Positions 15,582 through 63,842 of a stretch of DNA of 64,000 nt are shown piece after piece. Numbering within the stretch: position 1 is the first letter of the stretch; each line of letters opens with the position of its first letter. Origin of the DNA: Tenacibaculum sp. AHE14PA (lineage in GTDB: Bacteria > Bacteroidota > Bacteroidia > Flavobacteriales > Flavobacteriaceae); assembly GCF_019278465.1 (NCBI RefSeq), contig NZ_CP058983.1, forward strand, positions 1,301,501 through 1,365,500, given 5' to 3'. Under the pieces are notes generated by a model that worked only from the letters and a program-made list of their open reading frames with translations, ran no database searches and was not told the origin of the DNA. Position numbers and translations under genes: made by a program.

Positions 15582-15710
15582 ACAACACCGTGTATAATTA
15601 ATGGCTAGTTCTAGCTTACTTACGAAAATCCTCGCGGATTTTCTATTTGGTTTGTATTTGCTAAATTAGGTGCTTGAACACGCCACTAATCATACACAAA
15701 CACGTTGTAT
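15582..15710 (+). repeat. attC-like site 1, right part (also attR)
   Basis: The sequence starts at the 12-bp core repeat and runs through the central hairpin (GAAAATCC / GGATTTTC) to R' gttgtattta at 15704. The R'' part lies at 61-67 on the other side of the integrative element. Together they form a normal 124-bp-class site. Confidence 0.85.
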
Positions 15711-15713
15711 TTA

Positions 15714-16203
15714 ACGGCGGAATTTCAGCCAGAAATTCCTAATTTGTGTTTTAGGAGTTCTAAAAAGTAAATTAACATAATTATACGCCGAAAAGAAATA
15801 CTCAAAAGCTAAAAATGAAAATATATTCTCCTCCATTTTAAGAGAAAATTGCACCGTTAAAAATTATTTAAGACTAGTTTAGAAATAGAATGAAAAATTA
15901 AAGATTCATTTAAAACTTAAAATTTGAGCGGGAAAAAAATCTGTGGAAAGAAAGGATTTTAGCGCAACGGCGGAGATCTAAAAATTGAATAAAACGGAAA
16001 AATTAAAGAATCATTTAAAAATAAAATTTGAGCTGGAAAAAAACTGTGGAGAGAAAAGATTTTAGCACAACAGCGGAATTTAAAGCAGAAAACAGGAAAC
16101 AGGAAATTTGAGCATTGAAAGCGGGAAAAATATTGAGCTTTGAAGCGGGAAAAAAGAGCGGAATAAAATTTCAAGTAGAAAGATTATTTAGAACTCAAAA
16201 CCG
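15714..16203. other. ORF-less cassette C2
   Basis: About 490 bp between R' at 15704 and R'' at 16204-16213, with no convincing gene; a minus-strand frame at 15959-16174 has implausible composition. It contains an imperfect tandem duplication of about 85 bp (about 15887-15972 and 15989-16076) sharing blocks such as AAAATTTGAGC and GATTTTAGC. Scattered GCGGAATTT words recall the ORF-less cassette family elsewhere in the array. Confidence 0.6.
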
Positions 16204-16206
16204 CTA

Positions 16207-16340
16207 AATACAACACCGTATATAATTTATTGCTGGTGATTTACAAACTTACGAAAATCCTTGGCGGATTTTCTATTCTGTTTTTATTTACTATTTTAGG
16301 TGCTTCAAAAACGCAACAAATCATATACAAAACGTTGGGT
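16207..16340 (+). repeat. attC-like site 2
   Basis: R'' taaatacaac is the exact complement of the C2 start gttgtattta at 15704. R' gttgggtgta at 16334 opens C3. Arms GTATATAATTTATTGC and GCAACAAATCATATAC differ from perfect pairing at two A/C positions. Confidence 0.9.
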
Positions 16341-16354
16341 GTAATTTGAAAAAA

Positions 16355-17164
16355 ATGAAAAAAGAAATAAAAATAGACACATTTGAAGAAATACTTATTC
16401 GTTCATCTATTCAAGTATATACAATGGTAAACAAAGAGGAAAATCCGTCAGGATTTGGCTCTGGGTTTATTATTAATCACAAGAATAAATATTTTTTCAT
16501 TACCGTATTTCACGTTATAAGAGATGAAGTCGAAACCTTTTTAGAAACTAATTTACCTCCTAAAGATAACAAGCAATCTCTGCAACCAATAGGTGGAATT
16601 TATTCATTTAACCTATTAAAGGCTTCTCCAAATATATCTGCAGAAGGACTTGAAGAATTATTAACAGAACCTGGTGAAATAATTGACATCGCTTTTTCTG
16701 AATACATACCAGAAAAAATGGGTCCTTTAATGCAGAAAGGAATAGATTTCGGAGCATTTAAAGTGGAAAAAGGGATCAAAATAACTCTTGATGAAAACCA
16801 TATTTCAGAACCTAATACTGACAATAGTTATGGTGTTTTTGGAAACATTGGACATCATTACAAAGGAGTGAATTTAGTTTCTTCGCCAAAATTAGTGAAT
16901 AATTTAAAATATCATAAAACTTTTGGAGATTTCCACAAGTTTTTACTTCCCACAATAATAAAAGAAAAAGAAGAATTTGAAGGTTGCAGTGGAGCTCCAA
17001 TTATTGATTCACTTGGAAATGTTGTAGCAATAGCTTGTAAGGTAGCTACTGGAACTAAATTAGTCTATGGTTTCTCTATATCTAAATGTATACAGTTAAT
17101 TGATTACACGATAAGAATAGATGAAATAAATGAATTAACAAAAAATAAAAAGCAGAACAATTAA
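16355..17164 (+). CDS. Trypsin-like serine protease (cassette C3)
   Basis: 269 aa from ATG 16355; an in-frame TTG at 16346 is possible. The segment GSGFIINHKNKYFFITVFHV carries the catalytic His region and EGCSGAPII the nucleophilic Ser in the GxSGxP context of trypsin-like folds. An acidic region around IDIAFSEY may supply Asp. There is no signal peptide, so it is probably cytoplasmic. Such standalone proteases occur in defence islands as effector or sensor proteases; that role is inferred from company only. Its stop codon is 6 bp before the R'' box of site 3. Confidence 0.75.
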   Translation: MKKEIKIDTFEEILIRSSIQVYTMVNKEENPSGFGSGFIINHKNKYFFITVFHVIRDEVETFLETNLPPKDNKQSLQPIGGIYSFNLLKASPNISAEGLEELLTEPGEIIDIAFSEYIPEKMGPLMQKGIDFGAFKVEKGIKITLDENHISEPNTDNSYGVFGNIGHHYKGVNLVSSPKLVNNLKYHKTFGDFHKFLLPTIIKEKEEFEGCSGAPIIDSLGNVVAIACKVATGTKLVYGFSISKCIQLIDYTIRIDEINELTKNKKQNN

Positions 17165-17173
17165 AAAAACTAC

Positions 17174-17306
17174 ACCCAACACCGTGTATAATTAATTGCT
17201 TGGTTTTAGCCAATTTACGAAAGTCCTCGCGGACTTTCTATCTGTGTTTTATTTACTAACTTTAGTGCTTAAAACACGCAACTAACCATACACAACAACG
17301 TTGTGT
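17174..17306 (+). repeat. attC-like site 3
   Basis: R'' tacacccaac is the exact complement of the C3 start gttgggtgta. R' gttgtgtgta at 17300 opens C4. The central hairpin is GAAAGTCC / GGACTTTC, a compensatory variant of the usual GAAAATCC / GGATTTTC. Confidence 0.9.
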
Positions 17307-17352
17307 GTAATTATGACCCGTCCTGAAATAAGGCTACATAATATTAAACATT

Positions 17353-18575
17353 ATGTACAGAAATGACAAAGTAATTAGACGTTACAGTGAACCTTTTAAA
17401 TTAAAAATATTAGCCGAACTTGCCATCGGAAAACACACAAAGAGCGAACTTTGTAAACTCTACTCTATTGCTCCTACAACAGTAAATGTGTGGATTAAGA
17501 AGTACAATCGTAAAGACTTAATGAATACCAGAGTAAAAGTGGAAACTAAAGACGAAATATCTAGAATTAAAGCACTTCAAAAAGAGGTTGAACAGCTTAA
17601 AAAACTACTCCTAAAAAAAGATATCGATGCTATGGTAGAAGAATCCTATCTTGAAGTAGCTGCTGAAGATTTAGGCTATAAATCTATCGCTGAACTAAAA
17701 AAAAAGTTAAGTATAAAGCCTTAATTAAAGCTAAAGAAAAATCTAAGGGATTTGCTTCTTTAAAGACTATAACCCATTGTTTTGGTCATAAGCGTGACGC
17801 GTATTATAAATACAAATCTAGAGCTGATAAACGTTTAAAACTAGAACAACAAATTATTAACATCGTTAAAAAAAGACGCAAATCCCTTCCTAGAGAAGGT
17901 GTAAGAAAACTCGTAAAATCGTTAAATATAGATTTTAATAAAGCTAATATTAAAGTTGGCAGAGATACTTTATTTAAGGTGCTTAGAAAGCATCAAATGT
18001 TAACCCTTAGAAGAAAAACAAATGCTAGAACCACGAACTCTTATCATCGTTTTTATAAATATAACAACATCATAAAAGACCTGGAAGTTACTAGAAATAA
18101 CCAAGTTTGGGTATCTGATATCACATACATTAGAACCGTAAAAGGGTTTTGCTATTTGGCTTTAATAACTGATATGCATTCTAGAAAAATAGTAGGTTAC
18201 GACCTAAGTGATAGTTTGGAGTTAAAAGGATGTGTAAGAGCTCTTAATAAGGCTATTTATCAAGCTAAAAACATTAAACAACTTATTCATCATTCAGACA
18301 GAGGAATACAGTATTGTAGTAATGTATACACACAAATACTCAAAAGAAAAAAGATAAGTATTAGTATGACCGAACAAAATCATTGTTATGAAAATGCGAT
18401 AGCCGAACGCATAAATGGTATTTTAAAAGATGAATTTTATCTAGACCAAACCTTTGATAACGTGGCACAAGCAAAGAGAGCGGCAAAAAATGCAATTAAT
18501 TTATACAACGAAATAAGATTACACTTATCTTTAGACTATAAAACACCTAATATGGTATATCAATTATCAGCTTAA
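17353..18575 (+). CDS. IS3-family transposase OrfAB (programmed -1 frameshift)
   Basis: OrfA (17353-17724, 123 aa) has an HTH (FKLKILAELA...APTTVNVWIKKY) and a leucine-zipper-like KEVEQLKKLLLKK. At 17700-17706 the slippery heptamer A AAA AAG is in the correct phase. A -1 shift continues into OrfB to 18575, which carries the DDE integrase core: VWVSDITYIRT (D), HHSDRGIQY (D) and ENAIAERINGILKDEF (E). The visible ATG at 17979 is only the first in-frame one of OrfB. The element looks intact and potentially active. Confidence 0.92.
17700..17706 (+). promoter_or_regulatory. -1 ribosomal frameshift heptamer
   Basis: A AAA AAG lies within a run of nine A, in phase with OrfA, shortly before the OrfA stop. 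It is the standard slippery motif of IS3-family elements. Confidence 0.85.
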
Positions 18576-18627
18576 AATCAATTTTAACCTGTAGCCATAT
18601 TTCAGGACAAGACATTAAAAAAAAATA

Positions 18628-20106
18628 ATGGCAAAACTAACATTTTCAAAAGAACAAATTTTTGGTGATTGGAAGTTAATCCAAAATTTAGCATATGGAG
18701 GGAATAGTTCTGTTTGGTTAGCTGAAAACGCAAAGTTAAAAGAGACAAAAGCGATAAAATTATTAAAGAAAACACACGACACAGCACGATTAAGATTTTT
18801 AGATGAAATAAAAATAATTACAGAGAATCAAGATATTGATGGAATTATGAAAATCTTAGATACTTCCGTAAAAGATTCAGAAGTATTATGGTATGTTATG
18901 CCAAAAATGGAAACGTTTAAAAGACACTTAGTTAATAAACCGTCAATAAATAAAGTAGAAGGGATATTAGAAATTGCAAAAATATTAAGCCAAATTCATT
19001 CTCGAAAAGTTTCACATAGAGATATTAAACCTCAAAATCTATTTTTCAATGAAACCTTTTATATCGGAGATTTTGGATTGGTGGATTATCCTGATAAAGA
19101 AAATGACTTAACAATAATTGGAAGCGCATTAGGACCAAGATGGACAATTGCACCTGAGATGAGAAGTAACCCTGAAAAATCAGATGGAATTCCCGCAGAT
19201 GTATACAGTTTAACAAAAACACTTTGGATTACTTTAACAGGTATTGAAAAAGGGTTTGAAGGTCAATATTCTCCTACGGGCTCAATTGGCTTGTCAAACT
19301 ATGTTCCAGACATTTACTTAACAATATTAGAAGATTTATTAGTAATATCAACAGAAAACGACCCAAAACAAAGACCGTCAATTGACAAATTCATAGAAAT
19401 ATTAAGTTCTTGGATAGAAATTCAAAATAGTTTTTATCAACGAAATGACTTAGACTGGAAAACAGTTCAATACAAATTATTTCCTTCTAATATTCCTGAA
19501 TATGCCGAATGGACAGATGTTCAAACAATTACTAATATTCTAAACATTTTAGGTGGTATTAAAGCTTTAAATCATATGTTTTTTGACAATGGTGGTGGCT
19601 TAGATATGGAAGGAGCAAAATTATCAAATGAGCTAGGTTTAATAGAGCTTGATTGCGGAATTCCTTATTTATTAAAACCAAAAAGACTAATGTTCAATTC
19701 TTTTAATAGCGATTTTGAATGGAATTATTTTTATTTAGAACTTGAAAAAATTGAGCCTATATATAGTGAGTATTCTGGTTCTGAACAAATAGTAGAATTA
19801 GAACCATTAGAATATAAAGAATATGATTATATCGAAAACTATTATGAAAAATATGATGATGGATATAACCATAGACCTGAAAAACACAGAAGTATTATTA
19901 GATTAACAGAAGGTAATTTAGTTATTTTCAGAAAAACATCATCTTATAATTTAACTCCTTCAACATATGATGGAAGACACGGGGAAATGGGAGCTGAAGA
20001 GTTTAGAAAATATATAAAAAAACTTGTCGATATTGGATATAGAGCATATTATATTAGAGATGAAAATGGAAAAGTAACAGGTAAACAATTAACACATAAG
20101 ATATAA
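18628..20106 (+). CDS. Ser/Thr protein kinase (cassette C4)
   Basis: 492 aa. The kinase domain covers about 12-270: glycine-rich loop LAYGGNSSVW (21-30), probable ATP-binding K44 (KAIKLL), catalytic loop HRDIKPQN (130-137) and DFG at 148-150, with APE replaced by IAPEM. The C-terminal about 220 residues are acidic and tyrosine-rich and unrecognised. Kinases of this type occur in bacterial antiphage modules; that role is inferred from the cassette company. The IS3 element lies between the cassette start and this gene. The gene ends just before the R'' box of site 4. Confidence 0.85.
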   Translation: MAKLTFSKEQIFGDWKLIQNLAYGGNSSVWLAENAKLKETKAIKLLKKTHDTARLRFLDEIKIITENQDIDGIMKILDTSVKDSEVLWYVMPKMETFKRHLVNKPSINKVEGILEIAKILSQIHSRKVSHRDIKPQNLFFNETFYIGDFGLVDYPDKENDLTIIGSALGPRWTIAPEMRSNPEKSDGIPADVYSLTKTLWITLTGIEKGFEGQYSPTGSIGLSNYVPDIYLTILEDLLVISTENDPKQRPSIDKFIEILSSWIEIQNSFYQRNDLDWKTVQYKLFPSNIPEYAEWTDVQTITNILNILGGIKALNHMFFDNGGGLDMEGAKLSNELGLIELDCGIPYLLKPKRLMFNSFNSDFEWNYFYLELEKIEPIYSEYSGSEQIVELEPLEYKEYDYIENYYEKYDDGYNHRPEKHRSIIRLTEGNLVIFRKTSSYNLTPSTYDGRHGEMGAEEFRKYIKKLVDIGYRAYYIRDENGKVTGKQLTHKI

Positions 20107-20113
20107 TAACTAC

Positions 20114-20308
20114 ACACAACAAAGTATAAAAATAATAAGGGTTAAGTGCCAAACCCAAAGTTAATGCATATTTACAAAGTCCGCCAAATTTACAATTTGA
20201 CGGTTAAATGAAAAGAAAGTTAACAGTAAAATTGCAAATTTGGCTAAGTGCTAAATCCGAAATTAAGTGCATTTTAAGCCCTTACTATTCTTATACAAAC
20301 CGTTGTAG
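20114..20308 (+). repeat. attC-like site 4 (long class)
   Basis: R'' tacacacaac at 20111-20120 exactly complements the C4 start gttgtgtgta at 17300, across the IS3 insertion. R' gttgtagtgc at 20302 opens C5. AAC to GTT spacing is about 181 bp, with an inner hairpin around GTCCGCCAAATT. Confidence 0.88.
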
Positions 20309-20356
20309 TGCATTTGAAAAAATAGAATCTACTAAATAACAAAATCCCAAAAAGTA

Positions 20357-21232
20357 ATGATTGAAAGTAACCTATTATACATTATCGGTAATGGATTCGA
20401 TTTACACCACAATCTCCCTACTTCTTATGGTTATTTTGAAAAGTTTATGGAAAATTGGTCAAAGCTTATGTATCACGAAATACATCGTTTTTGGGAATTC
20501 AAAATAACAAACGATAAATGGAGTGACTTTGAAAACGATTTATCTACTTACAATAGTAAAAAAATGTATGAAGAGTTTTCACAAACAGATAGGGGTTGTC
20601 AGTATATCGCTGAAAAGTGTAGCTCAGAAACTCAAAAACTATATGAAGGCATTACTAATTGCTTCATAGACTGGGTTAAAGACATAAAACTTGAGCCTAT
20701 TACTAAAAAAGTAAAACTGACTCAAAATGCTGAATACATAACCTTTAACTACACCAAAACTCTCCAATATATCTATGAGATACCCGAAAGTGCTATTTGG
20801 CATATACATGGAGCTAGTACTGACTCTGATCTAATCTTTGGTCATGAAAAAAAAGAAAAAATTGAATACAATTACAGTGATGGAACTGGCATGCCATCGA
20901 CAGAACAAGAATGGTGTGAAGAAGCATTGAGATTTGCTAAACTACCACTTAACCAATTCAGAAAAAAAACAGATAAGATAATAAAAGAAAACTCAGATAG
21001 ATTTACTAGATATCAAAATATCGAAAAAATTTATGTTCTTGGACATTCACTAGCAGATGTTGACTTACCATACTTTGAAGTCATACATAAGAGTAATAAA
21101 AAGGCTAAATGGTGTATTTCATATTATAATATTCTTGAGCAAGAAAATCTATGTTCTAAATTAAAAGGAATCGGGGTGAAAAAATCTCAAATGGTAATGA
21201 TTACAATGAATAATCTAAATAAAGATAAATAA
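20357..21232 (+). CDS. AbiH-family abortive infection protein (cassette C5)
   Basis: 291 aa. The N-terminus LLYIIGNGFDLHHNLPTSYG is the AbiH signature; AEYITFNYTKTLQ, WHIHGA and YVLGHSLADVDLPYF follow in the expected order. Members are related to SIR2-like Rossmann folds and give abortive infection in Lactococcus plasmids. No membrane segment is seen. The ATG start lies 55 bp after the cassette GTT, behind a short CATTTGAAAA leader shared with several other cassettes. Phage defence is inferred from the family. Confidence 0.92.
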   Translation: MIESNLLYIIGNGFDLHHNLPTSYGYFEKFMENWSKLMYHEIHRFWEFKITNDKWSDFENDLSTYNSKKMYEEFSQTDRGCQYIAEKCSSETQKLYEGITNCFIDWVKDIKLEPITKKVKLTQNAEYITFNYTKTLQYIYEIPESAIWHIHGASTDSDLIFGHEKKEKIEYNYSDGTGMPSTEQEWCEEALRFAKLPLNQFRKKTDKIIKENSDRFTRYQNIEKIYVLGHSLADVDLPYFEVIHKSNKKAKWCISYYNILEQENLCSKLKGIGVKKSQMVMITMNNLNKDK

Positions 21233-21239
21233 AACGACA

Positions 21240-21434
21240 CTACAACAATGGCTATAATTAATACGGGTTTTAGTGCTTAACCTAAAGTTTAGAGCTTTAA
21301 ATGGAGTCCGCCAAATCTTTTTGATTTGGCTTTAGAACAAAAAAGATAAAACAAAATAAAAAGTTTTGGCTAAGTGCTTAATCGAAAGTTCACTACTTTT
21401 AATTCCCGTACTAACCATAGCCTAAACGTTAGTA
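21240..21434 (+). repeat. attC-like site 5 (long class)
   Basis: R'' acactacaac matches the complement of the C5 start gttgtagtgc at 9 of 10 bases. R' gttagtaaaa at 21428 opens C6. Spacing is about 181 bp. Confidence 0.88.
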
Positions 21435-21760
21435 AAAACTTTAGAAATCACTCAGACGGAAACAATTCTGTATTAAAATCATGAAACTTATTGTGGAATA
21501 ATTCTAGTTTACAATTACCTTTTCTGTCAACACTAGAAAAATAACATTCCCAAGTTTAGAGCAACTTTACGGAATTCTTACTCAAACGGAATTTTAAGCG
21601 TTAGCAACAACAGAACTGAACGCTAAAAATCACTCTTGCGGAATTTAGCAATTTTGCGGAGCTGAAAATCTATGCGGAATTATTTACTCAAACGTTGAAT
21701 TTTGAAAATATCGGAAATCATAAAACAGAATTACTTGTCGAAAAAAACGCATTTACTAAC
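21428..21760. repeat. ORF-less repeated cassette C6 (copy 1 of 11)
   Basis: About 330 bp from gttagtaaaa to tttactaac with no gene. Words of the type TGCGGAATT recur every 15-25 bp. It is nearly identical to C23, C29 and C41. A weak reading frame ACTCTTGCGGAATTTAGC... coding an AEF/AEL-rich peptide is broken upstream by a short deletion; it is open only in the C13 copy. Confidence 0.75.
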
Positions 21761-21885
21761 AACTTGTATATAAAAATTGCTTTATTTTAGCTAAATAGTT
21801 TGTGCTTTTTAATTAAGTCCAATTTTCCTGCGGAAAATTCGCCGCGCACTTACAAAGCAACTTTCTATACAAAAAACCGTTGTGC
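21754..21885 (+). repeat. attC-like site 6
   Basis: R'' tttactaac complements the C6 start gttagtaaa. R' gttgtgcaac at 21879 opens C7. This subtype has central hairpin AATTTTCC / GGAAAATT and an extra unpaired T in the left arm. Confidence 0.9.
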
Positions 21886-22050
21886 AACATACCGAAAACC
21901 AATTATTCCGCATTATATTTAGGAATGATTTTTGATAAATAATAATACGCTCTTTAAAATCTTGGTGAATTAAATAGTTGGGTTTATAGCTTAACTCAAG
22001 GAGTTATTGTTCGATTAATCTGTGATTCTATAATTAAAAAAATAAGTCAT

Positions 22051-22182
22051 ATGAGAAAAAGATTCAATAATATCGTAAAAGGTCTAACCTTTATTATAAT
22101 TCCAGTAATTCTAATAACGTTAATTCTATTTGGTGGGCAGACCATCCCGAACAGCAGACGCATCCAAACAGAAATTTCTTGA
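22051..22182 (+). CDS. Small single-pass membrane protein (cassette C7)
   Basis: 43 aa from ATG 22051. A basic N-terminus MRKRFNNIVK is followed by a hydrophobic helix GLTFIIIPVILITLILFGG and a short polar tail. It resembles small toxins or leader-like membrane peptides, but no family is recognised. It precedes a strong terminator and the Nmad2-like gene of the same cassette. It may be a real small gene; coding status is uncertain. Confidence 0.4.
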   Translation: MRKRFNNIVKGLTFIIIPVILITLILFGGQTIPNSRRIQTEIS

Positions 22183-22240
22183 AAGCTCTAACATTTATGA
22201 AACCTAGGGACGGGTTAAGAGGTTCGATTCCTCGGTCTGC
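22137..22240 (+). other. tRNA-like 3' end / possible RNA element
   Basis: GCAGACC (22137-22143) pairs perfectly with GGTCTGC (22234-22240) as a 7-bp acceptor-like stem. Before the 3' strand lies a T-arm-like GAGGTTCGATTCCTC. There is no D arm or anticodon arm in between and the length (about 104 nt) is wrong for a tRNA. It could be a tRNA relic left by a mobile element, or a coincidence. It overlaps the end of the small membrane ORF. Confidence 0.25.
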
Positions 22241-22250
22241 TACTAATTAT

Positions 22251-22281
22251 AGGCTGTCTAAAAAGACAGCCTATTTATTTT
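22251..22281 (+). terminator. Rho-independent terminator inside cassette C7
   Basis: AGGCTGTCT (22251-22259) and AGACAGCCT (22264-22272) form a 9-bp stem followed by ATTTATTTT. It lies upstream of the Nmad2-like gene, so it would stop transcripts entering that gene from the left. Confidence 0.75.
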
Positions 22282-22308
22282 AAAGAATTTATAAAAACCA
22301 ATTGGAAT

Positions 22309-23004
22309 TTGAAAAGAATTTATTCATATGTATTGAGATTTGATGACGGAGGAGCACCAAATCCATTTTGGGGAACTTGTACATTGACAATCTGCAAACC
22401 AGCGATTAGACGAACAGCGAGAATTGGAGATTGGGTAATCGGAACAGGTTCGAAAAATTCCAAACTAAAAGACGGAAAAAAATATGACCTTTCAGATAGT
22501 TTAGTTTATGCTATGAAAATAACGAATAAACTTACTCTTGAACAATATGACCAATTTTGTACGAAAAATCTAAAAGAAAAAATTCCATCTTGGTTTAATA
22601 AAGATTGGCGAAGACGAATGGGAGATTGTATTTATGATTATTCAAATCAGACAGAACCGAACTTAAGAAAAGGTGTCCACAACGAATCAAATGTGAAAAG
22701 AGATTTGAGCGGAAATAACTCGTTATTATCTACTGAATTTTATTATTTCGGAGAAGAGCCAAGGATAATTCCCGAAAATTTAAAACGGATTATCAAAAAA
22801 AATCAAGGACACTTACGAATTGAAAATGCAGATTTACTATCGGACTTTGAAAAGTGGATTAACGAGTTTAAGAAAAATAAAATTTATGCAGAACCACAAC
22901 TCGGATTTGAATTCAAAATTGAACCAAATGAAGAACAGATAGCTAAATGTTCAAAAAGACATAAAGAAAAGCGAGCGGACGAAATTGAAGAAACATTATG
23001 CTAA
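22309..23004 (+). CDS. Nmad2-like nucleotide modification associated protein (cassette C7)
   Basis: 231 aa with TTG start; no ATG alternative in the right place. The N-terminal block RIYSYVLRFDDGGAPNPFWG, CTLTICKPAIRR and GDWVIGTGSKN matches what I recall of the Nmad2 domain, predicted to act on or recognise modified nucleotides. The middle part contains a second alpha/beta segment with FYYFGEEP. Such proteins are found in phages and defence loci. Substrate and activity are unknown. It sits directly after a terminator, which is unusual for a cassette gene relying on read-through. Confidence 0.7.
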   Translation: MKRIYSYVLRFDDGGAPNPFWGTCTLTICKPAIRRTARIGDWVIGTGSKNSKLKDGKKYDLSDSLVYAMKITNKLTLEQYDQFCTKNLKEKIPSWFNKDWRRRMGDCIYDYSNQTEPNLRKGVHNESNVKRDLSGNNSLLSTEFYYFGEEPRIIPENLKRIIKKNQGHLRIENADLLSDFEKWINEFKKNKIYAEPQLGFEFKIEPNEEQIAKCSKRHKEKRADEIEETLC

Positions 23005-23014
23005 AAAGTACGTT

Positions 23015-55617: not shown

Positions 55618-55618
55618 G

Positions 55619-56219: not shown

Positions 56220-56230
56220 AAAAACCGATT

Positions 56231-56364: not shown

Positions 56365-56690
56365 AAAACTTTAGAAATCACTCAGACGGAAACAATTCTG
56401 TATTAAAATCATGAAACTTATTGTGGAATAATTCTAGTTTACAATTACCTTTTCTGTCAACACTAGAAAAATAACATTCCCAAGTTTAGAGCAACTTTAC
56501 GGAATTCTTACTCAAACGGAATTTTAAGCGTTAGCAACAACAGAACTGAACGCAAAAAATCACTCTTGCGGAATTTAGCAATTTTGCGGAGCTGAAAATC
56601 TATGCGGAATTATTTACTCAAACGTTGAATTTTGAAAATATCGGAAATCATAAAACAGAATTACTTGTCGAAAAAAACGCATTTACTAAC
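56358..56690. repeat. ORF-less repeated cassette C41 (copy 10 of 11)
   Basis: Nearly identical to C6, C23 and C29, about 333 bp. No gene. Confidence 0.75.
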
Positions 56691-56820
56691 AACTTGTATA
56701 TAAAAATTGCTTTATTTTAGCTAAACTAAATAGTTTGTGCTTTTTAATTAAGTCCAATTTTCCTGCGGAAAATTCGCCGAGCTCTTACAAAGCAACTTTC
56801 TATACAAAAAACCGTTACAA
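56684..56820 (+). repeat. attC-like site 41
   Basis: R'' tttactaac complements the C41 start. R' gttacaagca at 56814 opens C42. Confidence 0.9.
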
Positions 56821-56839
56821 GCAAGCAAATACTCGGAAA

Positions 56840-57469
56840 TTGACAGAAAAAAAACAATATGAAATTTTAAATTCATTACCTGCTTATGGTCCGATGTATA
56901 TCCCTATTACGGATTCTGATGAACCGTTCTCATCTGAAGGTTTTGTTGTTCGTTTTTTTAAGGATGACGGAACTGATTGGGTTGGAAACTTCAAAGAGGG
57001 CTGGACTAAATTGAATAAAGTATTTGATTTCCCTGAAAAGAAGAGAATAATTGTTTTTGCAGGAGGACTTGGTTATATAATTGACCCGAATACTGAAAAA
57101 CCAATAGGAAACTTTGGAATAACGATAAGTGATGTTTTTCAAAGCAAAAACGGAAGTTTAATCTGTGTAGATGGTATCGGAGTAAAAATCCTTGACAATG
57201 CTAATGGTGAAATTTGGGAAAGTGAAAGGATTTCTTGGGATGGATTTAGAGACTTGAAATTTGAAGATGATATTATATCTGGACTAACTTTTGACCCCAC
57301 AAATTCGAAAAAAGAATGGTGTGAGTTTTCTCTAAATATATTGACAAAAGAAATTAAAGGAGGATGTTTTAGAATTATGCTAGATAACAATCCCAATCTT
57401 GAAATGAAAAATAGGATAGAAATAAAGACAAAAGATAACGTGAAAAAACCTTGGTGGAAATTTTGGTAA
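56840..57469 (+). CDS. Unknown protein, beta-propeller-like (cassette C42)
   Basis: 209 aa from TTG 56840; the longer frame from 56735 begins inside the attC site and is rejected. Repeated strand pairs (KRIIVFAGGLGYIID, GSLICVDGIGVKILD) suggest a small beta-sheet or WG-like protein. It ends in KKPWWKFW. No family is recognised. Confidence 0.58.
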   Translation: MTEKKQYEILNSLPAYGPMYIPITDSDEPFSSEGFVVRFFKDDGTDWVGNFKEGWTKLNKVFDFPEKKRIIVFAGGLGYIIDPNTEKPIGNFGITISDVFQSKNGSLICVDGIGVKILDNANGEIWESERISWDGFRDLKFEDDIISGLTFDPTNSKKEWCEFSLNILTKEIKGGCFRIMLDNNPNLEMKNRIEIKTKDNVKKPWWKFW

Positions 57470-57483
57470 GCAAAAAAGCCAGC

Positions 57484-57677
57484 TTGTAACACTATATATA
57501 GCAAATTGGGCGATTAGTGTTTAATCCAAAGATTGTTGTCTATTTATAAAGTCGCCAAATCTTTTGATTTGGTATTAAAGAGAAAAATTAAAACAAAATA
57601 CAAAAGATTTGGCTTGTGGCTAATCCGAAAGTAATCGCTTATTTTCTACCCAACTTGCCATATATTTAACGTTGGGT
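57484..57677 (+). repeat. attC-like site 42 (long class)
   Basis: R'' agcttgtaac complements the C42 start gttacaagca at 9 of 10. R' gttgggtttc at 57671 opens C43. ATATATAGCAAATTGGG / CCCAACTTGCCATATAT arms; same subtype as site 46. Confidence 0.9.
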
Positions 57678-57680
57678 TTC

Positions 57681-58037
57681 ATTAGCGGAAACCGTTAAAA
57701 TTGAACATTTTTAGCTTTTAAAGTGAATTTTTACAATGGTGGAAAAATTTACATAAAAGCTATTTTGGAATTTAATTACAACTCAAAAAAAGTAGCTTGA
57801 ACAATTTAGTTTTTTAAGTCAATTTTTTACAAATAGAAAAATTTCAGTTTAGAATTGTTTCGTTAAATAAAAATCTAAAACTGGAGAGTTTTGAAATCAA
57901 ATTACAAACTTTGAGAGTTTTGAGAAGTTTTGAAAATTGAGTTGAATACCAAAACGTGGAAATCATAATTGCGGAATTAGAATCTTTGCGGAAATAATAA
58001 CTGAAAATTAAAATAGAACGGAAAAACCATAAAACGA
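57681..58037. other. ORF-less cassette C43
   Basis: About 360 bp with no gene. It contains repeated GAGAGTTTTGA words (about 57880-57930) and two GCGGAA words near the end. It is not a member of the main ORF-less family but shares the TGCGGAA vocabulary. Confidence 0.6.
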
Positions 58038-58039
58038 AA

Positions 58040-58173
58040 ACCCAACAAGGTGCATAATTCATTAAGGTGGAACTTCCTTGCGGAATTTCCTCGCACTTTT
58101 ATTATCTTTCGTTCAAATTCGGAAAAGTGCTACGCTCTTTTCCTTAACGAAACCATGCACAAAGCCGTTGCCA
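58040..58173 (+). repeat. attC-like site 43
   Basis: R'' aaaacccaac complements the C43 start gttgggtttc at 9 of 10. R' gttgccagca at 58167 opens C44. Nearly identical in body to site 20. Confidence 0.88.
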
Positions 58174-58192
58174 GCAAGCATAAAATTGAATT

Positions 58193-58699
58193 ATGAGAAT
58201 AAATTTAACAGTACTGATTTTAATATATTTTGGACAAATAAGTTTTGGCCAAAATGTGAATTATGATTTAATAACTTATAAAGGATTAAATTTATTTTCT
58301 ACTAAGACAGAAATAATTGAAAAGCTTGGGAATCCAAATAAGACTTTTGAACCACATTATGAATGTGGTTTTTTATCTAGTGGTGAGCAAGGTAAAGATT
58401 ACTTCACACTTGAATATAATAAGATAAAATTTACTGGAAATGAAAATGAAAAATATGTTTTAGAGCAAATTAATTTTGAAAATGACAATACAATTATTCT
58501 AAATTATGGAGAATATAAATTGACTTGTGAAACTGAACTTACTGAATTGACTAAAATTTTCGGAAAAGAAATAATTAAATATTTTGACAATGATTTAAGT
58601 GGTGGAATTATTATTCCTCACAAAGAATATGATAGCGGAATTAGAATTGAATTAAAAAATGGAAAACTAATCCGGTTTGAATATTGGTCACCTTGTTAA
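58193..58699 (+). CDS. Exported unknown protein (cassette C44)
   Basis: 168 aa. The signal peptide MRINLTVLILIYFGQISFGQ is followed by a beta-rich domain with two cysteines near HYECGFLS and KLTCETELTEL that could pair in the periplasm, and WSPC at the end. The fold is not recognised. Confidence 0.65.
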   Translation: MRINLTVLILIYFGQISFGQNVNYDLITYKGLNLFSTKTEIIEKLGNPNKTFEPHYECGFLSSGEQGKDYFTLEYNKIKFTGNENEKYVLEQINFENDNTIILNYGEYKLTCETELTELTKIFGKEIIKYFDNDLSGGIIIPHKEYDSGIRIELKNGKLIRFEYWSPC

Positions 58700-58706
58700 A
58701 GCCAGC

Positions 58707-58840
58707 AGGCAACAATGCGCATAATTTATTGCTAAACAGTTTTTCCTGCGGAAAAACCTCGCAAACGTAAAAGACTGTGTTCAATTTATTATTTTTTCGC
58801 TAGATTTACGCAACAAACTATAAGCACAAAGCCGTTGGCT
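58707..58840 (+). repeat. attC-like site 44
   Basis: R'' agcaggcaac complements the C44 start gttgccagca at 8 of 10, the weakest match class of the array. R' gttggcttta at 58834 opens C45. GTTTTTCC / GGAAAAAC subtype. Confidence 0.85.
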
Positions 58841-58872
58841 TTAATGCCTAAATTGAACAAAAATAAAATAAT

Positions 58873-59064
58873 ATGAATCCATTTTTATCAAAAGTCTTAT
58901 TAACAACATTAATTTTAGTTTTTATAACTCTAACAGTATCAATAATTGATATTACAAAAAGTAAGTTAAATAGAAACGATAAAATTTTTTGGGTATTTGT
59001 AGTTTTATTATTCAACATATTTGGGACAATTACCTATTTTATAATCGGTAAGAAAAAAAACTAA
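58873..59064 (+). CDS. Small membrane protein with PLDc_N-like domain (cassette C45)
   Basis: 63 aa. Two hydrophobic helices (SKVLLTTLILVFITLTVSII and KIFWVFVVLLFNIFGTITYF) with the closing FIIGKKKN match the PLDc_N domain found alone in many small bacterial membrane proteins, some linked to immunity. Function is unproven. About 185 bp without a gene follow it in the cassette. Confidence 0.75.
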   Translation: MNPFLSKVLLTTLILVFITLTVSIIDITKSKLNRNDKIFWVFVVLLFNIFGTITYFIIGKKKN

Positions 59065-59249
59065 AGGTGAATCAATCTGCGGAATTTGATAAAATGCTGA
59101 AAAGCTGATTACCGAACTGTATGCAAAAAAATGTCTGACTTCCATTTAACCGAATAAATATCACAATGGAATTTGAGCCAGTTTGCGGAATTGAAACTGA
59201 ATGAAAAGAAAATCCGAAAGAATTATTAAACGGACAAAAATGCACTAAA

Positions 59250-59382
59250 AGCCAACACCGTATAAAAAAAATTGCTAGTTTTAGCTAAACCAAAGTTAGT
59301 TGCTCGTTTGCTAGCTTCTGATTTTCCTTCGGAAAATCCTCACATACAAACACGCAACTAATCTTATACAACAACGTTATGT
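59250..59382 (+). repeat. attC-like site 45
   Basis: R'' aaaagccaac complements the C45 start gttggcttta at 9 of 10. R' gttatgtgca at 59376 opens C46. Body nearly identical to site 18. Confidence 0.9.
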
Positions 59383-59395
59383 GCAATTAGAAGAA

Positions 59396-59689
59396 ATGAA
59401 ACATATAAAAATAAATTCATCCAAAATTTCTGATTGGGATTCATTTCACAATGTATTCTCAGAAATTTTCAACTTTCCAGATTATTATGGAAGAAATATT
59501 AACGCTTGGATTGACTGTATGGATGAATTAACAACTGAATTAACATTAATAGATTTTGGAGATTGTCGTGAATTAAAAAATAAACAACCTGAAATAATAA
59601 ATTCTATTAATGAATGTTCTGCATTTGTTAATTTTAGAAGAATTGAGGCAGAAGAAGAGCCTGTTTTAATAATATCAATGTTTTCGTAA
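59396..59689 (+). CDS. Barstar-family inhibitor (cassette C46, gene 1)
   Basis: 97 aa from ATG 59396. The barstar fold is recognisable: DWDSFHNVFSEIFNFPDYYG, NINAWIDCMDELTTELTLID and the C-terminal ISMF strand. Barstars inhibit RNase toxins of the barnase type. No barnase-like partner lies in the cassette, so it may act as an orphan immunity protein. It is followed after 3 bp by a second gene. Confidence 0.88.
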   Translation: MKHIKINSSKISDWDSFHNVFSEIFNFPDYYGRNINAWIDCMDELTTELTLIDFGDCRELKNKQPEIINSINECSAFVNFRRIEAEEEPVLIISMFS

Positions 59690-59692
59690 AAT

Positions 59693-60235
59693 ATGAATAG
59701 ATGGATTAAATCACCTTGGGGTATAAGTATTGGTACTGCAATTTTCAGTTTGCTTTTGACAATGGGATATGATTATTCTAAAGAGAAACCAATTCTTTCA
59801 ACTGTTTGGAGTGTAATCGTCTGGATTTGGGATTTAGTAATATCAATTCTAAATTTTAATCTAAAAGTTTGGTGGATTATAGCAGGAATTGGAATTTTTA
59901 TTTTCGTCCTCTATATAATTGATAAATTCAAAAAGGAAGAAACTTTTAAACCTGATTTCTACTCATATACCGAAGACAGAATTAAACAATGGAAATGGAC
60001 TTGGAAGTGGAAATGGAATCAAAGTAAAAACGCTTGGATTATTTCAGATATGGAGGCTCGCTGTCCAAATTGCGACACTCCTATGATTGACCACTCTAAT
60101 TCTACATTTGGATTAAGTTTTGATTGTCCTAGATGTGATTTTAGTGCTAGTGGAAACCAATGTGATGAACAATATAAAATTGAAAGAATTATTTGCGACA
60201 ACATTGACCGAAAGAGAAAAGAAAAAAGCACATAA
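59693..60235 (+). CDS. Membrane protein with C-terminal zinc ribbon (cassette C46, gene 2)
   Basis: 180 aa. Two membrane helices (ISIGTAIFSLLLTMGY and KVWWIIAGIGIFIFVLYII) precede a tryptophan-rich linker and a zinc ribbon CPNCDTPM...CPRCDFSASG. Topology and zinc ribbon suggest a membrane-anchored sensor or adaptor. Coupled with the barstar gene; function is unknown. Confidence 0.65.
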   Translation: MNRWIKSPWGISIGTAIFSLLLTMGYDYSKEKPILSTVWSVIVWIWDLVISILNFNLKVWWIIAGIGIFIFVLYIIDKFKKEETFKPDFYSYTEDRIKQWKWTWKWKWNQSKNAWIISDMEARCPNCDTPMIDHSNSTFGLSFDCPRCDFSASGNQCDEQYKIERIICDNIDRKRKEKST

Positions 60236-60425
60236 CACTATATATAGCAAATTGGGGGATTAGTGTTTAACCCAAAGGTTGTTGTCTATTTGCAATAGTC
60301 GCCAAATCTTTTGATTTGGTATTAAAAGAGAAAAATTAAAACAAAATGCAAAAGATTGGGCTTGTGACAAAACCAAAAGTAATCGCTTATTTTCTGCCCA
60401 ACTTGCCATATATTTAACGTTAGCA
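60230..60425 (+). repeat. attC-like site 46 (long class)
   Basis: R'' agcacataac complements the C46 start gttatgtgca at 9 of 10. R' gttagcaaaa at 60419 opens C47. Same subtype as site 42. Confidence 0.9.
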
Positions 60426-60737
60426 AAAACTTTAGAAATCACTCAGGCGGAACTAATTTTGAGTTAAAAATCTTAAATTTATTATTCAATAATTTTCTTT
60501 TCATAACATTGGAAAAATAACAAACAAAAGTTAAGAGCAACTTTACGGAATTCTTACTCAAACGGAATTCTAAACATTGACAACAACAGAACTGAACGCA
60601 AAAAATCACTCTTGCGGAATTTAGCAACTTTGCGGAATTGAAAACCTTTGCGGAATTGTTTACTCAAACTCTGAATTTTGAAACTATTAGAAAGCTTAAA
60701 AAAGGAATGGTAAACCGAAAAAAACGCATTTGCTAAC
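60419..60737. repeat. ORF-less repeated cassette C47 (copy 11 of 11)
   Basis: Nearly identical to C28 (44605-44923), including the 62-codon minus-strand frame, which I regard as a by-product. No gene. Confidence 0.75.
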
Positions 60738-60867
60738 AACTTGTATATAAAAATTGCTTTATTTTAGCTAAACTAAATAGGCTGTGCTTTTTTACTAAGT
60801 CCAATTTTCCTGCGGAAAATTCGCCGAGCTCTTAAAAAGCAACTTTCTATACAAAAAACCGTTGTAA
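60731..60867 (+). repeat. attC-like site 47
   Basis: R'' atttgctaac complements the C47 start at 9 of 10. R' gttgtaaaca at 60861 opens C48. Confidence 0.9.
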
Positions 60868-60888
60868 ACAAGCTGAAAAACGAAAACT

Positions 60889-61392
60889 ATGATACATTTG
60901 ATTTGGTCTATAATAAACGGAATGATTGTTCTTTACTTTCTTTATCTAATTGTTGGATTTATAGCTAAAGGAAAAAAAATATTTAAACCACAATTTAAAT
61001 TTGTCTCAATCTTTATAATGGTAATCGGAATTGTACAAATAATTTCCGCATCTAATTCAAGAAAAAACTCAAACCGAATATCAATAACAGAAAACTATGA
61101 GAGAAAAAATAACTCGGAAATTAAACAAGTGAAATTGGAAGATAATTGGACTTTTGATATAAATATGCTTGTAAAATATTCTATAGAACAGAATGAATAT
61201 ATCCCAATTGAAAGTAACAGTTATTTGACTGGAATTGTGAGCGGTTATATGTGGGAATTTAAGTCAATAGATACGAACAATTTGAATATGAATGGAAAAG
61301 CGGAATTTATTGCTAATGGAATTTTAAAATGGAATCTTTTTGGAATTACTGTTTATAACGAATCAAAAACATTTAGCGGAATTATAGAATGA
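60889..61392 (+). CDS. Membrane-anchored unknown protein (cassette C48)
   Basis: 167 aa. Two N-terminal hydrophobic helices (LIWSIINGMIVLYFLYLIVG, FKFVSIFIMVIGIVQIISA) are followed by a polar beta-rich domain (NSYLTGIVSGYMWEFKSID...). No family is recognised. Leader AAGCTGAAAAACG is shared with C8 and C27. Confidence 0.62.
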   Translation: MIHLIWSIINGMIVLYFLYLIVGFIAKGKKIFKPQFKFVSIFIMVIGIVQIISASNSRKNSNRISITENYERKNNSEIKQVKLEDNWTFDINMLVKYSIEQNEYIPIESNSYLTGIVSGYMWEFKSIDTNNLNMNGKAEFIANGILKWNLFGITVYNESKTFSGIIE

Positions 61393-61403
61393 AAAAAGCC
61401 TGT

Positions 61404-61536
61404 TTACAACACCGTATAAAATTAATTGCTAGTTTTAGCTCACTTGGGAAATTCCTTCGGAATTTCGCCGTTCGTGATTAATCTAGTAAATTAGTTGCTT
61501 GAAACACGCAACTAACCTTATACAACAACGTTGTAG
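61404..61536 (+). repeat. attC-like site 48
   Basis: R'' tgtttacaac exactly complements the C48 start gttgtaaaca. R' gttgtagcca at 61530 opens C49. Hairpin variant GAAATTCC / GGAATTTC. Confidence 0.92.
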
Positions 61537-61555
61537 CCAATATAAGAAAACGCCT

Positions 61556-62437
61556 ATGGGAACTTGGGGAACAGGAATTTCTTCAAACGATATTTACGAA
61601 GATATTAATTATGAATTCTTTGAATTATATAATCAAGGAATGGAAGTTTCTGCGATTACTGAAAAGTTAATTCAGGAAAATAAAGAACTGGTTGATTCTC
61701 ACGAAGACCAAAATAATTTTTGGATAACTATCGCAAAATCCCAATGGGAATGTAAATCTCTTGACCCAAAAATTTTTAATCGAATTAAAGATATTGTCGA
61801 ATCTGGAAAGGATATTGAATTGTGGAAAGAACTTGACTCGTCACAATCTGATTTGACTAAAAGAAAAAAAGTTTTAGACGGGTTTTTAAAGAAAATATCA
61901 ACCGAAAAAAAGACAGAACGCAAACGGAAAGTAAAAAAATCACGAAATGCGATTTTCGAAAAAGGAGATTGTTTAGTTTTTAAATTAAGTGATGGAGATT
62001 ATTGTGGAGTTTTCGTGTTGGAATCAGAAAAAGAAACGGAATTCGGACTGAATTTAATTGTTGTAACTGACATTAAACAATCGGAAAAACCAACTGAAAA
62101 AGATTTTGAGAATGCAAAACTATTATTTAGACTTGAACAGCAAATAAACAAAGAGTTTAAACCAAAGGAACAAATTAGTTGGTATTATGCTCAACTTTTC
62201 AAAAAATCGGAAACGGAATTTGAAAAAATTGGGCAATTAAAAGTTAATAAGGATTATTATTCAAATAAAGACTATCAGAGTTTTTCGAATTGGGATAATC
62301 TGAAATTATTTCAAGATGAATTCTATTCTGACTTTGAAAATAATAAGTGCAAAAACAAATTGAAATTAAGCAGTTTAAGAAAAAAATACTGGCTACAACA
62401 AAGAACTGAGGTAAAAAACAAACCTTTTCTTTATTAA
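61556..62437 (+). CDS. DUF4259-like protein with C-terminus altered by IS110 (cassette C49)
   Basis: 293 aa from ATG 61556. The N-terminus MGTWGTGISSNDIYEDI matches DUF4259. The middle part (KSRNAIFEKGDCLVFKLSDG, YCGVFVLE) is an unrecognised domain. The R'' box of site 49 lies inside the reading frame at 62390-62399 (YWLQ). Without the IS110 element the frame would have stopped within the attC site; the last dozen residues (RTEVKNKPFLY) come from the insertion sequence. Confidence 0.72.
   Translation: MGTWGTGISSNDIYEDINYEFFELYNQGMEVSAITEKLIQENKELVDSHEDQNNFWITIAKSQWECKSLDPKIFNRIKDIVESGKDIELWKELDSSQSDLTKRKKVLDGFLKKISTEKKTERKRKVKKSRNAIFEKGDCLVFKLSDGDYCGVFVLESEKETEFGLNLIVVTDIKQSEKPTEKDFENAKLLFRLEQQINKEFKPKEQISWYYAQLFKKSETEFEKIGQLKVNKDYYSNKDYQSFSNWDNLKLFQDEFYSDFENNKCKNKLKLSSLRKKYWLQQRTEVKNKPFLY
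62393..62399 (+). repeat. attC-like site 49, R'' part
   Basis: tggctacaac (62390-62399) exactly complements the C49 start gttgtagcca at 61530. The IS110 element follows directly; the rest of the site resumes at about 63701. Confidence 0.82.
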
Positions 62438-62513
62438 ATTTACACAATAATATTCTAGACTCAAAATGCTATTACTTGGTATTTTAAGTTTTTATTTCAT
62501 GTATAATAACTAC

Positions 62514-63482
62514 TTATTTAGCTAATACCGAAATATACTTTTCATCATAAGGTAAACCCGATTTTGCAATAGCAAAACTTTGTTTTATTAACTTATTTGA
62601 AACAGCTATTAATGCTAGTTTTTTACTCTTTCCTTTGTTTACAATACGCTCATAAATATCTTTACATGCCTTATTATGTTTGCAGGCATTAAAGGAACAC
62701 AAAAACAAAAGATTACGTAACTTTCTATTACCAACTTTACTAATCCTACTTCGACCTCTTACACTACTGCCAGACTCTCGTATTATAGGTGTTATACCAA
62801 CATAACTACAAAGTTGTTTTGAGTTTTCAAACTTGGTAAAACCATCGGTAATTACTAGCATAAATAAGGCGGTTTTAAGTCCGATCCCTGGAATACTGGT
62901 TAATAAGGTTAACTGAAACTGCTGCTCTTGTTTTACTAAAGATAACAACCTTTCTTCAATTCCTTTTAACTCTTTATCTAAATGTTTTTTGTCTCTTTTC
63001 AAAGAACGATAAACCCATTTTGAAGGAATGCCTAAAACTTCTTCTCCATGTATTTTATTCTTGGTTGCTGTGCGTTTCTTGATAAAACTATCCATTAAAC
63101 GAAACAATTGCAAGCATTCACTTTGTACATCTGTAAGAGCTGTATATAAAGGAACCTCATTTATTTGTCCATATTCGCAAATGGCTTTGGCATCACTTTT
63201 ATCTGTTTTTACTTTAGATAATTTCATCTGAATGAAACGCTTTACCGATAAAGGATTCACTACCGAAACTAAAATACCTTGTTTAAATAAAAACTGAGCT
63301 AGCCGATAATGATAATAACCCGTAGCTTCCATTATAACTAATGATTCTTTAGGAAGGTTTTTTAGAAAGACCTTAAAACCAGAGGCATCATTTTTAAATT
63401 GATCATGGCCGCTTTTACTTCCATGAACATCAAATACATCTTTACTTATGTCAACTCCAAAAATTTCCTTATATTTATTCAT
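62514..63482 (-). CDS. IS110-family DEDD recombinase
   Basis: 322 aa. The RuvC-like DEDD domain has D in FGVDISKDVFDV, E in VIMEATGYYHY and D/D in VKTDKSDAKAICEYG. The Transposase_20 domain has LTSIPGIGLKTALFML and SYVGITPIIRESGSS with the catalytic Ser region, RGRSRISKVGNRKLR following. Such enzymes use a bridge RNA encoded in the noncoding end to pair donor and target DNA. It appears intact. Confidence 0.95.
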   Translation of the reverse strand: MNKYKEIFGVDISKDVFDVHGSKSGHDQFKNDASGFKVFLKNLPKESLVIMEATGYYHYRLAQFLFKQGILVSVVNPLSVKRFIQMKLSKVKTDKSDAKAICEYGQINEVPLYTALTDVQSECLQLFRLMDSFIKKRTATKNKIHGEEVLGIPSKWVYRSLKRDKKHLDKELKGIEERLLSLVKQEQQFQLTLLTSIPGIGLKTALFMLVITDGFTKFENSKQLCSYVGITPIIRESGSSVRGRSRISKVGNRKLRNLLFLCSFNACKHNKACKDIYERIVNKGKSKKLALIAVSNKLIKQSFAIAKSGLPYDEKYISVLAK

Positions 63483-63574
63483 AAGAACTGTTTTATGAAA
63501 GAATAAGCTACTTGACTCACAACAAATTGAAATCGAGATCTAGGTCTCACAGAACTGAACGTGATTTTTAGTAG

Positions 63575-63646
63575 AAAAGAGAGAGGATTATCAATGTTGT
63601 CGAAGTCAATGCTTCACCGTATATATTAACCTTAATTCTCTCTTTT
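63575..63646 (-). ncRNA. Candidate bridge RNA target-binding loop of the IS110 element
   Basis: AAAAGAGAGA (63575-63584) and TCTCTCTTTT (63637-63646) form a 10-bp stem upstream of the recombinase gene. Its loop contains CACCGTATATA (63615-63625), identical to the attC start found for instance at site 7, and GTTGT (63596-63600), the complement of the ACAAC box. One half matching and one half complementary to the target is the arrangement of bridge RNA guides. The transcript ends are unknown. Confidence 0.6.
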
Positions 63647-63700
63647 ATTCTTTCTGATTTATATCTCTTAAATTTAACCTTTTTATTAAATTGCTAACTT

Positions 63701-63827
63701 AAGACGTATAAAAATAATTGCTAGTTCTAGCCTACTTACGAAAATCCTCACGGATTTTCTATCTGTGATCTATTTGCTAATTTAGTTCCTTAAATACGCA
63801 ACGAAATCATACACAAAACCGTTGGCA
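63701..63827 (+). repeat. attC-like site 49, right part
   Basis: The site continues after the IS110 element with CGTATAAAAATAATTGC, a GAAAATCC / GGATTTTC hairpin and R' gttggcaata at 63821, which opens a cassette running out of the window. Confidence 0.85.
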
Positions 63828-63842
63828 ATAATAAAATGCAGC

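Follow-up and report, generated by a model that had tools for sequence, protein, structure and literature searches.

Architecture of the locus

The 64,000-nucleotide stretch of DNA analysed here (the window) comprises bases 1301501-1365500 of the complete 2.82-Mb chromosome of Tenacibaculum sp. AHE14PA and carries part of a Flavobacteriaceae cassette array that resembles an integron and spans 78 kb. A sequence-only reading of the window had described 48 cassettes starting at position 15582, with no IntI integrase in view. The array proved to be real, but it is larger, with about 60 cassettes, and its true start lies 14.2 kb upstream of the window. No IntI above the model cut-off is encoded in the whole genome, but a tyrosine recombinase gene outside the IntI family stands at the head of the array, just beyond the window. 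Judging from sequence features, the array has probably been built and reshuffled by this Xer-like recombinase of its own.

A search for AAC...GTT pairs whose inner arms are complementary (the arm scan) mapped 58 sites between chromosome positions 1287967 and 1362908, eleven of which are located upstream of the window. Within the window, the 49 palindromic sites of the sequence-only reading were recovered, all on the + strand between 15584 and 63823 (Table 1); 47 of them stem from the arm scan and two were added by a covariance model, among them the last site, which has lost its AAC, has a degraded left arm and belongs to a unit whose ends do not match. Site lengths fall into two groups, 122-129 nt and a long form of 186-190 nt, and in the main register three bases follow AAC and six (sometimes five) precede GTT. 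At an arm-scan score of at least 11.5, 52 candidate pairs, which may overlap, were found on the + strand of 104 kb and none on the - strand. The genes are likewise almost all co-directional, as had been proposed: the longest ATG-initiated open reading frame (ORF) of at least 60 aa lies on the + strand in 37 of the 58 units and on the - strand in two, while 19 units hold none.

The covariance model, built from 36 mapped sites and yielding rough E-values, marks 56 places in this genome, namely 51 of the 58 mapped sites, the two additions at 58711 and 63701, and three places at 874-881 kb; it misses seven of the eight long-form sites. The three matches far from the array (G000:C1:874649-881545) have no tyrosine recombinase listed nearby, and a scan for site structure and matching unit ends confirmed no unit there. 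Note that twelve units of 299-337 bp recur within the array, in two related groups of about 80-100% identity. They look poor in ORFs and may encode RNA or represent empty carrier cassettes.

Cassette ends and strand asymmetry

The sequence-only reading had stated that the two ends of each unit are complementary. Ends that are reverse complements of at least 7 nt were found in 56 of the 58 units, and of 9-10 nt in 55 (mean 9.3), whereas the ends of other unit pairings match over 3.9 nt on average and none of 10,000 permutations gave a mean above 4.95. One exception is the unit interrupted in its site by an island of 15.5 kb, and the other in fact consists of two units around an internal site, whose ends match over 6 nt, followed by one mismatch, and over 9 nt. 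The complementary stretch ends in a mismatch at a fixed place, after which the ends often pair again for about 3 bp. Watson-Crick pairs exchange freely at positions 5-9 of the outer arm, with all four types present at positions 6-9, and these pair changes are strong covariation. The base following GTT is G or A in all 58 units but the next one is a purine in only 25, so that the units depart from the RYYYAAC and GTTRRRY boxes of IntI integrons, as had been noted before for the bases after GTT. The eleventh cassette base is an A in 58 of 58 units.

The sites are markedly asymmetric between strands. The 58 sites have 320 stem positions without a Watson-Crick pair. Read on the top strand, 183 of these are A.C, corresponding to G.T on the bottom strand, a single one is G.T and 136 are of other types; the bottom strand is therefore predicted to fold better. 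The sites had been picked without regard to A.C, and two of the 58 outer-arm pairings were corrected afterwards. In other loci the outer arms, which the scan did not select for, held 146 A.C, 3 G.T and 97 other positions. As calculated with DNA folding parameters, the bottom strand was the more stable one in 57 of 57 sites of this array and in 145 of 146 sites from other loci, with an even split of 107 to 108 of 216 in random control pieces. This bias would be pointless in a duplex, which speaks against double-stranded or cruciform Xer-like sites that are handled by the host XerC/XerD proteins, with the array recombinase as an accessory. As each cassette also pairs with itself and rarely with others, and as homologues of the array recombinase are found at array heads, we consider such a role of XerC/XerD improbable.

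Boundaries of duplicated and transferred cassettes

Comparison of homologous loci and cassettes placed the breakpoints at GTT. The 1,315 bp that lead up to GTT are 93.8% identical to the locus of T. haliotis; divergence sets in one base further on, and the first cassette of T. haliotis is a different one. Cassette 8, whose product resembles a cation transporter by eye, recurs in G113, a genome from another genus whose recombinase is 57% identical to the one described here; the two copies share 98% identity over 971 bp, and both flanks switch at GTT; relatives of this cassette occupy the attI of locus L069 (89%) and the interior of L151 (87%), where the recombinase is 38% identical. Within the array, 13 pairs of duplicated cassettes were compared, and their identity stops 0-6 nt beyond GTT, the exception being two neighbouring cassettes that were copied together.

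Palindromic repeats in many copies, together with the 19 units that lack an ORF, might suggest palindromes of the IS200/605, REP or MITE type that were spread by a transposase, the genes between them being incidental. The outer complementarity, however, joins the two ends of a unit rather than parts of one site, and the identity of duplicated and transferred cassettes stops at GTT on both sides. On these grounds a transposase origin appears extremely improbable.

The recombinase and a putative attI site

Extension of the contig upstream revealed a tyrosine recombinase of 395 aa next to an attI-like site, 14 kb before the window. The gene points into the array and is co-directional with it, a feature that the sequence-only reading, confined to the window, had overlooked. 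Its closest named relatives are the recombinases of T. haliotis (95%) and T. retecalamus (96% over a protein of 285 aa). Against the IntI model TIGR02249 the protein scores 195.1 bits, below the cut-off of 265 bits, and the match is split in two, leaving out model positions 180-237. The extra domain of IntI is not present: the spacing between the catalytic K and H is 63-64 residues in 63 recombinases, versus 105 in 19 IntI proteins, and amounts to 68 and 71 residues in the XerC/D-like proteins of the same genome. The catalytic residues R, K, H, R, H and Y, the last being Tyr357 in this protein, are invariant in 58 homologues, and in a phylogenetic tree, with small sampling, the 19 IntI form a clade with a support of 1.0 that excludes the array recombinases. 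Most family members seen have an additional N-terminal domain of about 95 aa, which is shortened in two of 20 distant homologues and missing or shortened in a few homologues; residues 9-77 of the recombinase form a beta-beta-alpha-beta-beta-alpha-beta domain with weak HARP/XPB-like matches.

The array head begins 3' of the recombinase gene at the attI-like site TATAACGAGTT, and a conserved TATAACNNGTT site follows the recombinase gene. The motif TATAA[CT]NNGTT[AG] was detected no more than 330 nt past the recombinase stop, often at about 25 nt, in 70 of 80 named loci, with 0.7 expected in shuffled sequences. Beyond its GTT the sequence varies by genome except for the eleventh base, an A in 70 of 70 cases. 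By motif and position this is a putative attI.

Association of the recombinase with cassettes in related genomes

In the loci of relatives, a unit was counted only when it had the site structure and its ends obeyed the end rule. For the 80 named loci, the 331 kb downstream of the recombinase gene contain 144 confirmed units, compared with two in the 687 kb upstream and two on the other strand. All 25 loci with over 6 kb of downstream sequence had units, as did nine of 12 with 3-6 kb and seven of ten with 1.5-3 kb; the 33 loci with less than 1.5 kb, where the contigs end, had none. In a second set, from whose scan two regions of 1.5 and 0.1 kb were left out, 20 homologues were 33-44% identical and 14 of these had downstream units, as had 13 of 15 closer ones, with one unit each on the other strand in L156 and L178. 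Around true IntI genes in eight genomes of the phylum, a single unit was found in 319 kb, both strands counted. When the covariance model was run on the relatives, 130 of 149 Flavobacteriaceae genomes gave matches: of the 100 genomes with a recombinase at E<=1e-40 there were 96, and of the 49 without one there were 34 (Fisher p 1.4e-5).

A plasmid of Chryseobacterium sp. SNU WT5 (L207) carries three confirmed units headed by a recombinase of 36% identity, and may represent a mobile version. A Flagellimonas plasmid (L211) encodes, near erm(F), a XerA-type homologue annotated as "site-specific tyrosine recombinase/integron integrase"; no cassette unit is found there on the strand of the recombinase and one on the other strand. 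One of the site patterns also matches five viral contigs, and cassettes may be carried by phages.

The sequence-only reading had asked whether site occupancy differs between related strains, whether any recombinase is associated with such arrays, and whether breakpoints lie at GTT, as points on which its proposal, an integron class of its own or some other cassette-mobilising system, could fail. All three comparisons went the other way: occupancy differs from T. haliotis, a recombinase accompanies such arrays in many genomes, and the breakpoints coincide with GTT. The proposal is thus supported.

A number of observations weigh against assigning these arrays to the recombinase. The 34 genomes that carry sites although they lack a recombinase at E<=1e-40, six of which have a best homologue of only 31-36% identity, indicate that the link between recombinase and sites is strong, but not exclusive, and four of the 100 genomes with a recombinase gave no model match. 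No units were found by the scan in six of the 20 distant loci, three of which have less than 1 kb downstream, and the close loci L172, of the same genus, and L173 have an attI motif but no confirmed unit, with candidate sites only in L172. Seven of eight plasmid loci lack a confirmed unit on the recombinase strand, one of them being the putative rAID locus, whose sites are too short for the scan. The attI motif was not found in ten of the 80 loci, and distant homologues carry other sequences at this position; one of 20 distant homologues has a serine at the first catalytic arginine. The tree does not settle a single clade for the array recombinases, with a support of 0.26 at the node that joins one group to IntI and Xer. 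Since the scan rewarded inner-arm A.C in other loci, the inner-arm counts there are biased and only the outer-arm count is unbiased. Finally, recombination, strand use and the function of the N-terminal domain are all predicted from sequence, the single-stranded route from the folding asymmetry.

Cassette content and the inserted island

Cassette content was scanned for 20 array proteins with Pfam and for ten of these also with PADLOC. Besides the defence genes listed in Table 1, FRG, Nmad2 and EVE-HNH proteins were found, and six of the 20 proteins matched no Pfam family at E<=0.01. No type VI secretion system (T6SS) immunity genes were detected among these 20 proteins; the remaining cassettes were outside the scan. 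The mercuric-reductase-like protein, with HMA and pyridine nucleotide-disulphide oxidoreductase domains, is part of a multigene cassette of 6.6 kb. Two insertion elements were noted: an IS3-like element, recognized by eye, within a cassette at 17353-18575, and an IS110 transposase (Pfam) at 62514-63482, preceding the degraded last site.

The array is interrupted by an island of 15.5 kb (window 63-15581, counting one copy of the repeat), which encodes type I restriction-modification, Abi_2 and helix-turn-helix proteins as well as an arm-binding tyrosine integrase. With its position some 180 nt ahead of the first site in the window, this integrase might itself be taken for the array recombinase. 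It is, however, part of an island that contains type I restriction genes, is flanked by a 12-bp repeat and splits a pre-existing site, a provenance that the sequence-only reading had missed, and the interrupted cassette 12 is complete on the left of the island; such a role can practically be dismissed. As the island splits the site of cassette 12, a cassette site seems to have served as the target of another integrating element.

Table 1. Features of the cassette array in window coordinates; negative positions lie upstream of the window
Feature	Position	Strand	Remarks
Whole cassette array	-14229..63823	+	G000:C1:1287271-1365323; 78 kb, about 60 units and sites, one interrupting island
In-window part of array	1..63823	+
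Tyrosine recombinase, 395 aa	-15574..-14387	+	chromosome 1285926-1287113, L016:4926-6113; outside window
attI-like site TATAACGAGTTG	-14237..-14226		chromosome 1287263-1287274; about 150 nt past recombinase stop
Type III restriction system	-6816..-1560		L016:13684-18940; one cassette, outside window
End of cassette 12 (whole: -379..67)	1..67	+	attC split by island within or after repeat ACAACACCGTGT
12-bp direct repeat ACAACACCGTGT, left copy	63..74	+	flanks island
Island integrase	14184..15401		arm-binding tyrosine type
12-bp direct repeat ACAACACCGTGT, right copy	15582..15593	+	flanks island
Protein kinase	18628..20106	+	matches mad6 and PD-T4-6 defence models
AbiH family	20357..21232	+	abortive infection
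Mercuric-reductase-like protein	27877..29610
Shedu SduA	46443..47711	+
putAbiC	51714..52712	+
Recurring 299-337-bp units	21428, 31573, 33496, 41463, 43226, 44605, 45047, 45503, 45959, 56358, 60419		also chromosome 1289723
attC-like site 1	15584..15706	+	arm scan
Site 2	16212..16336	+	arm scan
Site 3	17178..17302	+	arm scan
Site 4	20118..20304	+	arm scan, long form
Site 5	21244..21430	+	arm scan, long form
Site 6	21758..21881	+	arm scan
Site 7	23019..23142	+	arm scan
Site 8	29758..29880	+	arm scan
Site 9	31452..31575	+	arm scan
Site 10	31902..32030	+	arm scan
Site 11	32534..32657	+	arm scan
Site 12	33310..33498	+	arm scan, long form
Site 13	33792..33918	+	arm scan
Site 14	34670..34792	+	arm scan
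Site 15	35910..36099	+	arm scan, long form
Site 16	36893..37015	+	arm scan
Site 17	37709..37832	+	arm scan
Site 18	38315..38439	+	arm scan
Site 19	38946..39068	+	arm scan
Site 20	39620..39745	+	arm scan
Site 21	40509..40631	+	arm scan
Site 22	41341..41465	+	arm scan
Site 23	41793..41921	+	arm scan
Site 24	42483..42605	+	arm scan
Site 25	43103..43228	+	arm scan
Site 26	43523..43651	+	arm scan
Site 27	44485..44607	+	arm scan
Site 28	44921..45049	+	arm scan
Site 29	45377..45505	+	arm scan
Site 30	45835..45961	+	arm scan
Site 31	46293..46419	+	arm scan
Site 32	47727..47915	+	arm scan, long form
Site 33	49111..49236	+	arm scan
Site 34	49740..49863	+	arm scan
Site 35	50516..50704	+	arm scan, long form
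Site 36	52701..52824	+	arm scan
Site 37	53614..53735	+	arm scan
Site 38	54457..54579	+	arm scan
Site 39	55622..55744	+	arm scan
Site 40	56235..56360	+	arm scan
Site 41	56688..56816	+	arm scan
Site 42	57488..57673	+	arm scan, long form
Site 43	58044..58169	+	arm scan
Site 44	58711..58836	+	covariance model
Site 45	59254..59378	+	arm scan
Site 46	60234..60421	+	arm scan, long form
Site 47	60735..60863	+	arm scan
Site 48	61408..61532	+	arm scan
Site 49	63701..63823	+	covariance model; last site, left arm degraded, AAC lost

Relation to known systems

The defining feature of integrons is IntI with its extra domain. The array shares with them an attI by the recombinase gene, cassettes in one direction with complementary ends, GTT boundaries, a predicted folding of the bottom strand and the exchange of cassettes between species. 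In contrast, its recombinase lacks the extra domain, is not part of the IntI clade and scores under the IntI cut-off. The cassette end boxes are longer than classical ones (9-10 bp, a mismatch, often about 3 bp more) and without RRRY, and the strand asymmetry is predicted from G.T wobbles and a 3/6-nt spacer. XerA and XerH, which resolve dimers at double-stranded dif sites, have the catalytic fold in common with the array recombinase, but the latter has the N-terminal extension in most members and heads cassette arrays. According to PMC3607928, the integrons of Treponema differ in using intI, and in PMC9024848 a single complete integron, from Salinibacter, is named by IntegronFinder 2.0 for Bacteroidetes proper.

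The AAC/GTT boundaries, complementary ends and predicted bottom-strand preference are common to attC, and the array could in principle be the relic of a classical integron, a cluster of attC sites without an adjacent integrase (CALIN), with ordinary attC sites moved by an IntI encoded elsewhere and an unrelated recombinase next to them. PMC9892861 reports on six phage sites, of which five had their bottom strands inserted by IntI1 at the expected G|TT junctions; of the two attC-type sites from a Polaribacter phage, P12002L_attC2 was inserted and P12002L_attC1 was not, and the top strand of attC2 gave no recombinants. This virulent phage, P12002L (L206), does hold scattered candidate sites of the register found here, six on one strand and a single one on the opposite strand, and no unit that passes the end rule; that P12002L_attC2 may be one of them is a lead only. 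Nevertheless, IntI above the cut-off occurs in none of 149 genomes of the family, compared with 105 of 395 in the phylum sample, and is not encoded in this complete genome, units follow the array recombinase in all 25 long loci, and cassettes start after GTT[AG] rather than RRRY. Note also that a recombinase, though not IntI, is encoded at the array start, which does not agree with the definition of a CALIN. We regard a relic of this kind as very improbable.

A further parallel, not seen in the sequence-only reading, concerns the rAID clusters, defined in PMC12247911 by features that the present array shares: a tyrosine recombinase, followed by short genes in one orientation, and conserved motifs between these genes; their biogenesis is described there as an unresolved area of active research. 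In the gut Bacteroidales, a cluster on a P. distasonis plasmid has a recombinase that is 36% identical over 297 aa and annotated T6SS immunity genes downstream. It contains a chain of at least seven units in a row whose ends are complementary, with palindromes of 42-46 nt between them. A naive pair search on this plasmid gave a chance background of 39 pairs in forward and 26 in reverse orientation, the chain being seen in the forward set only. In contrast to the array described here, the sites of this locus are shorter and end in ATT instead of GTT; the described rAID content consists of orphan T6SS immunity genes while the genes identified here serve mainly phage defence, and this array has about 60 cassettes. 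From this one locus we infer that the P. distasonis cluster is probably a rAID and that rAID clusters and the present arrays may form one family.

Proposed mechanism and implications

Once excised, a cassette would be circular, and its bottom strand would form a single long hairpin with an asymmetric spacer of 3/6 nt; a folded single strand is likewise used by IntI integrons. The array recombinase would bind both arms and cut beside GTT, and the hairpin would be joined to the double-stranded attI, so that new cassettes would enter at the recombinase end. Strand choice may result from the A.C mismatches of the top strand, which are G.T pairs in the bottom strand, and the small N-terminal domain may aid the grip on forked or hairpin DNA.

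The system appears to work like an integron outside the IntI family and is possibly a second class. As a non-IntI recombinase heads similar palindrome-marked rows in many relatives, it probably represents a second means of gene capture that has been overlooked and by which phage-defence and other genes would pass between species. Its function would be the capture and exchange of accessory genes, many of them for phage defence. We moderately favour the broader view of a second integron class across the Bacteroidia, with a Xer-like recombinase that lacks the IntI domain, folded single-stranded sites and strand choice by G.T wobbles, of which the gut rAID clusters and the defence arrays of marine Flavobacteriaceae would be two branches.

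If a recombinase without the IntI domain builds arrays of 60 cassettes, this domain is not needed for cassette capture. Given the model matches in most Flavobacteriaceae genomes, surveys of integrons may then have missed a whole class of systems, and the growth of rAID clusters would have a concrete and testable mechanism. The arrays would also provide libraries of defence genes, and their enzyme a new single-strand recombinase for engineering.

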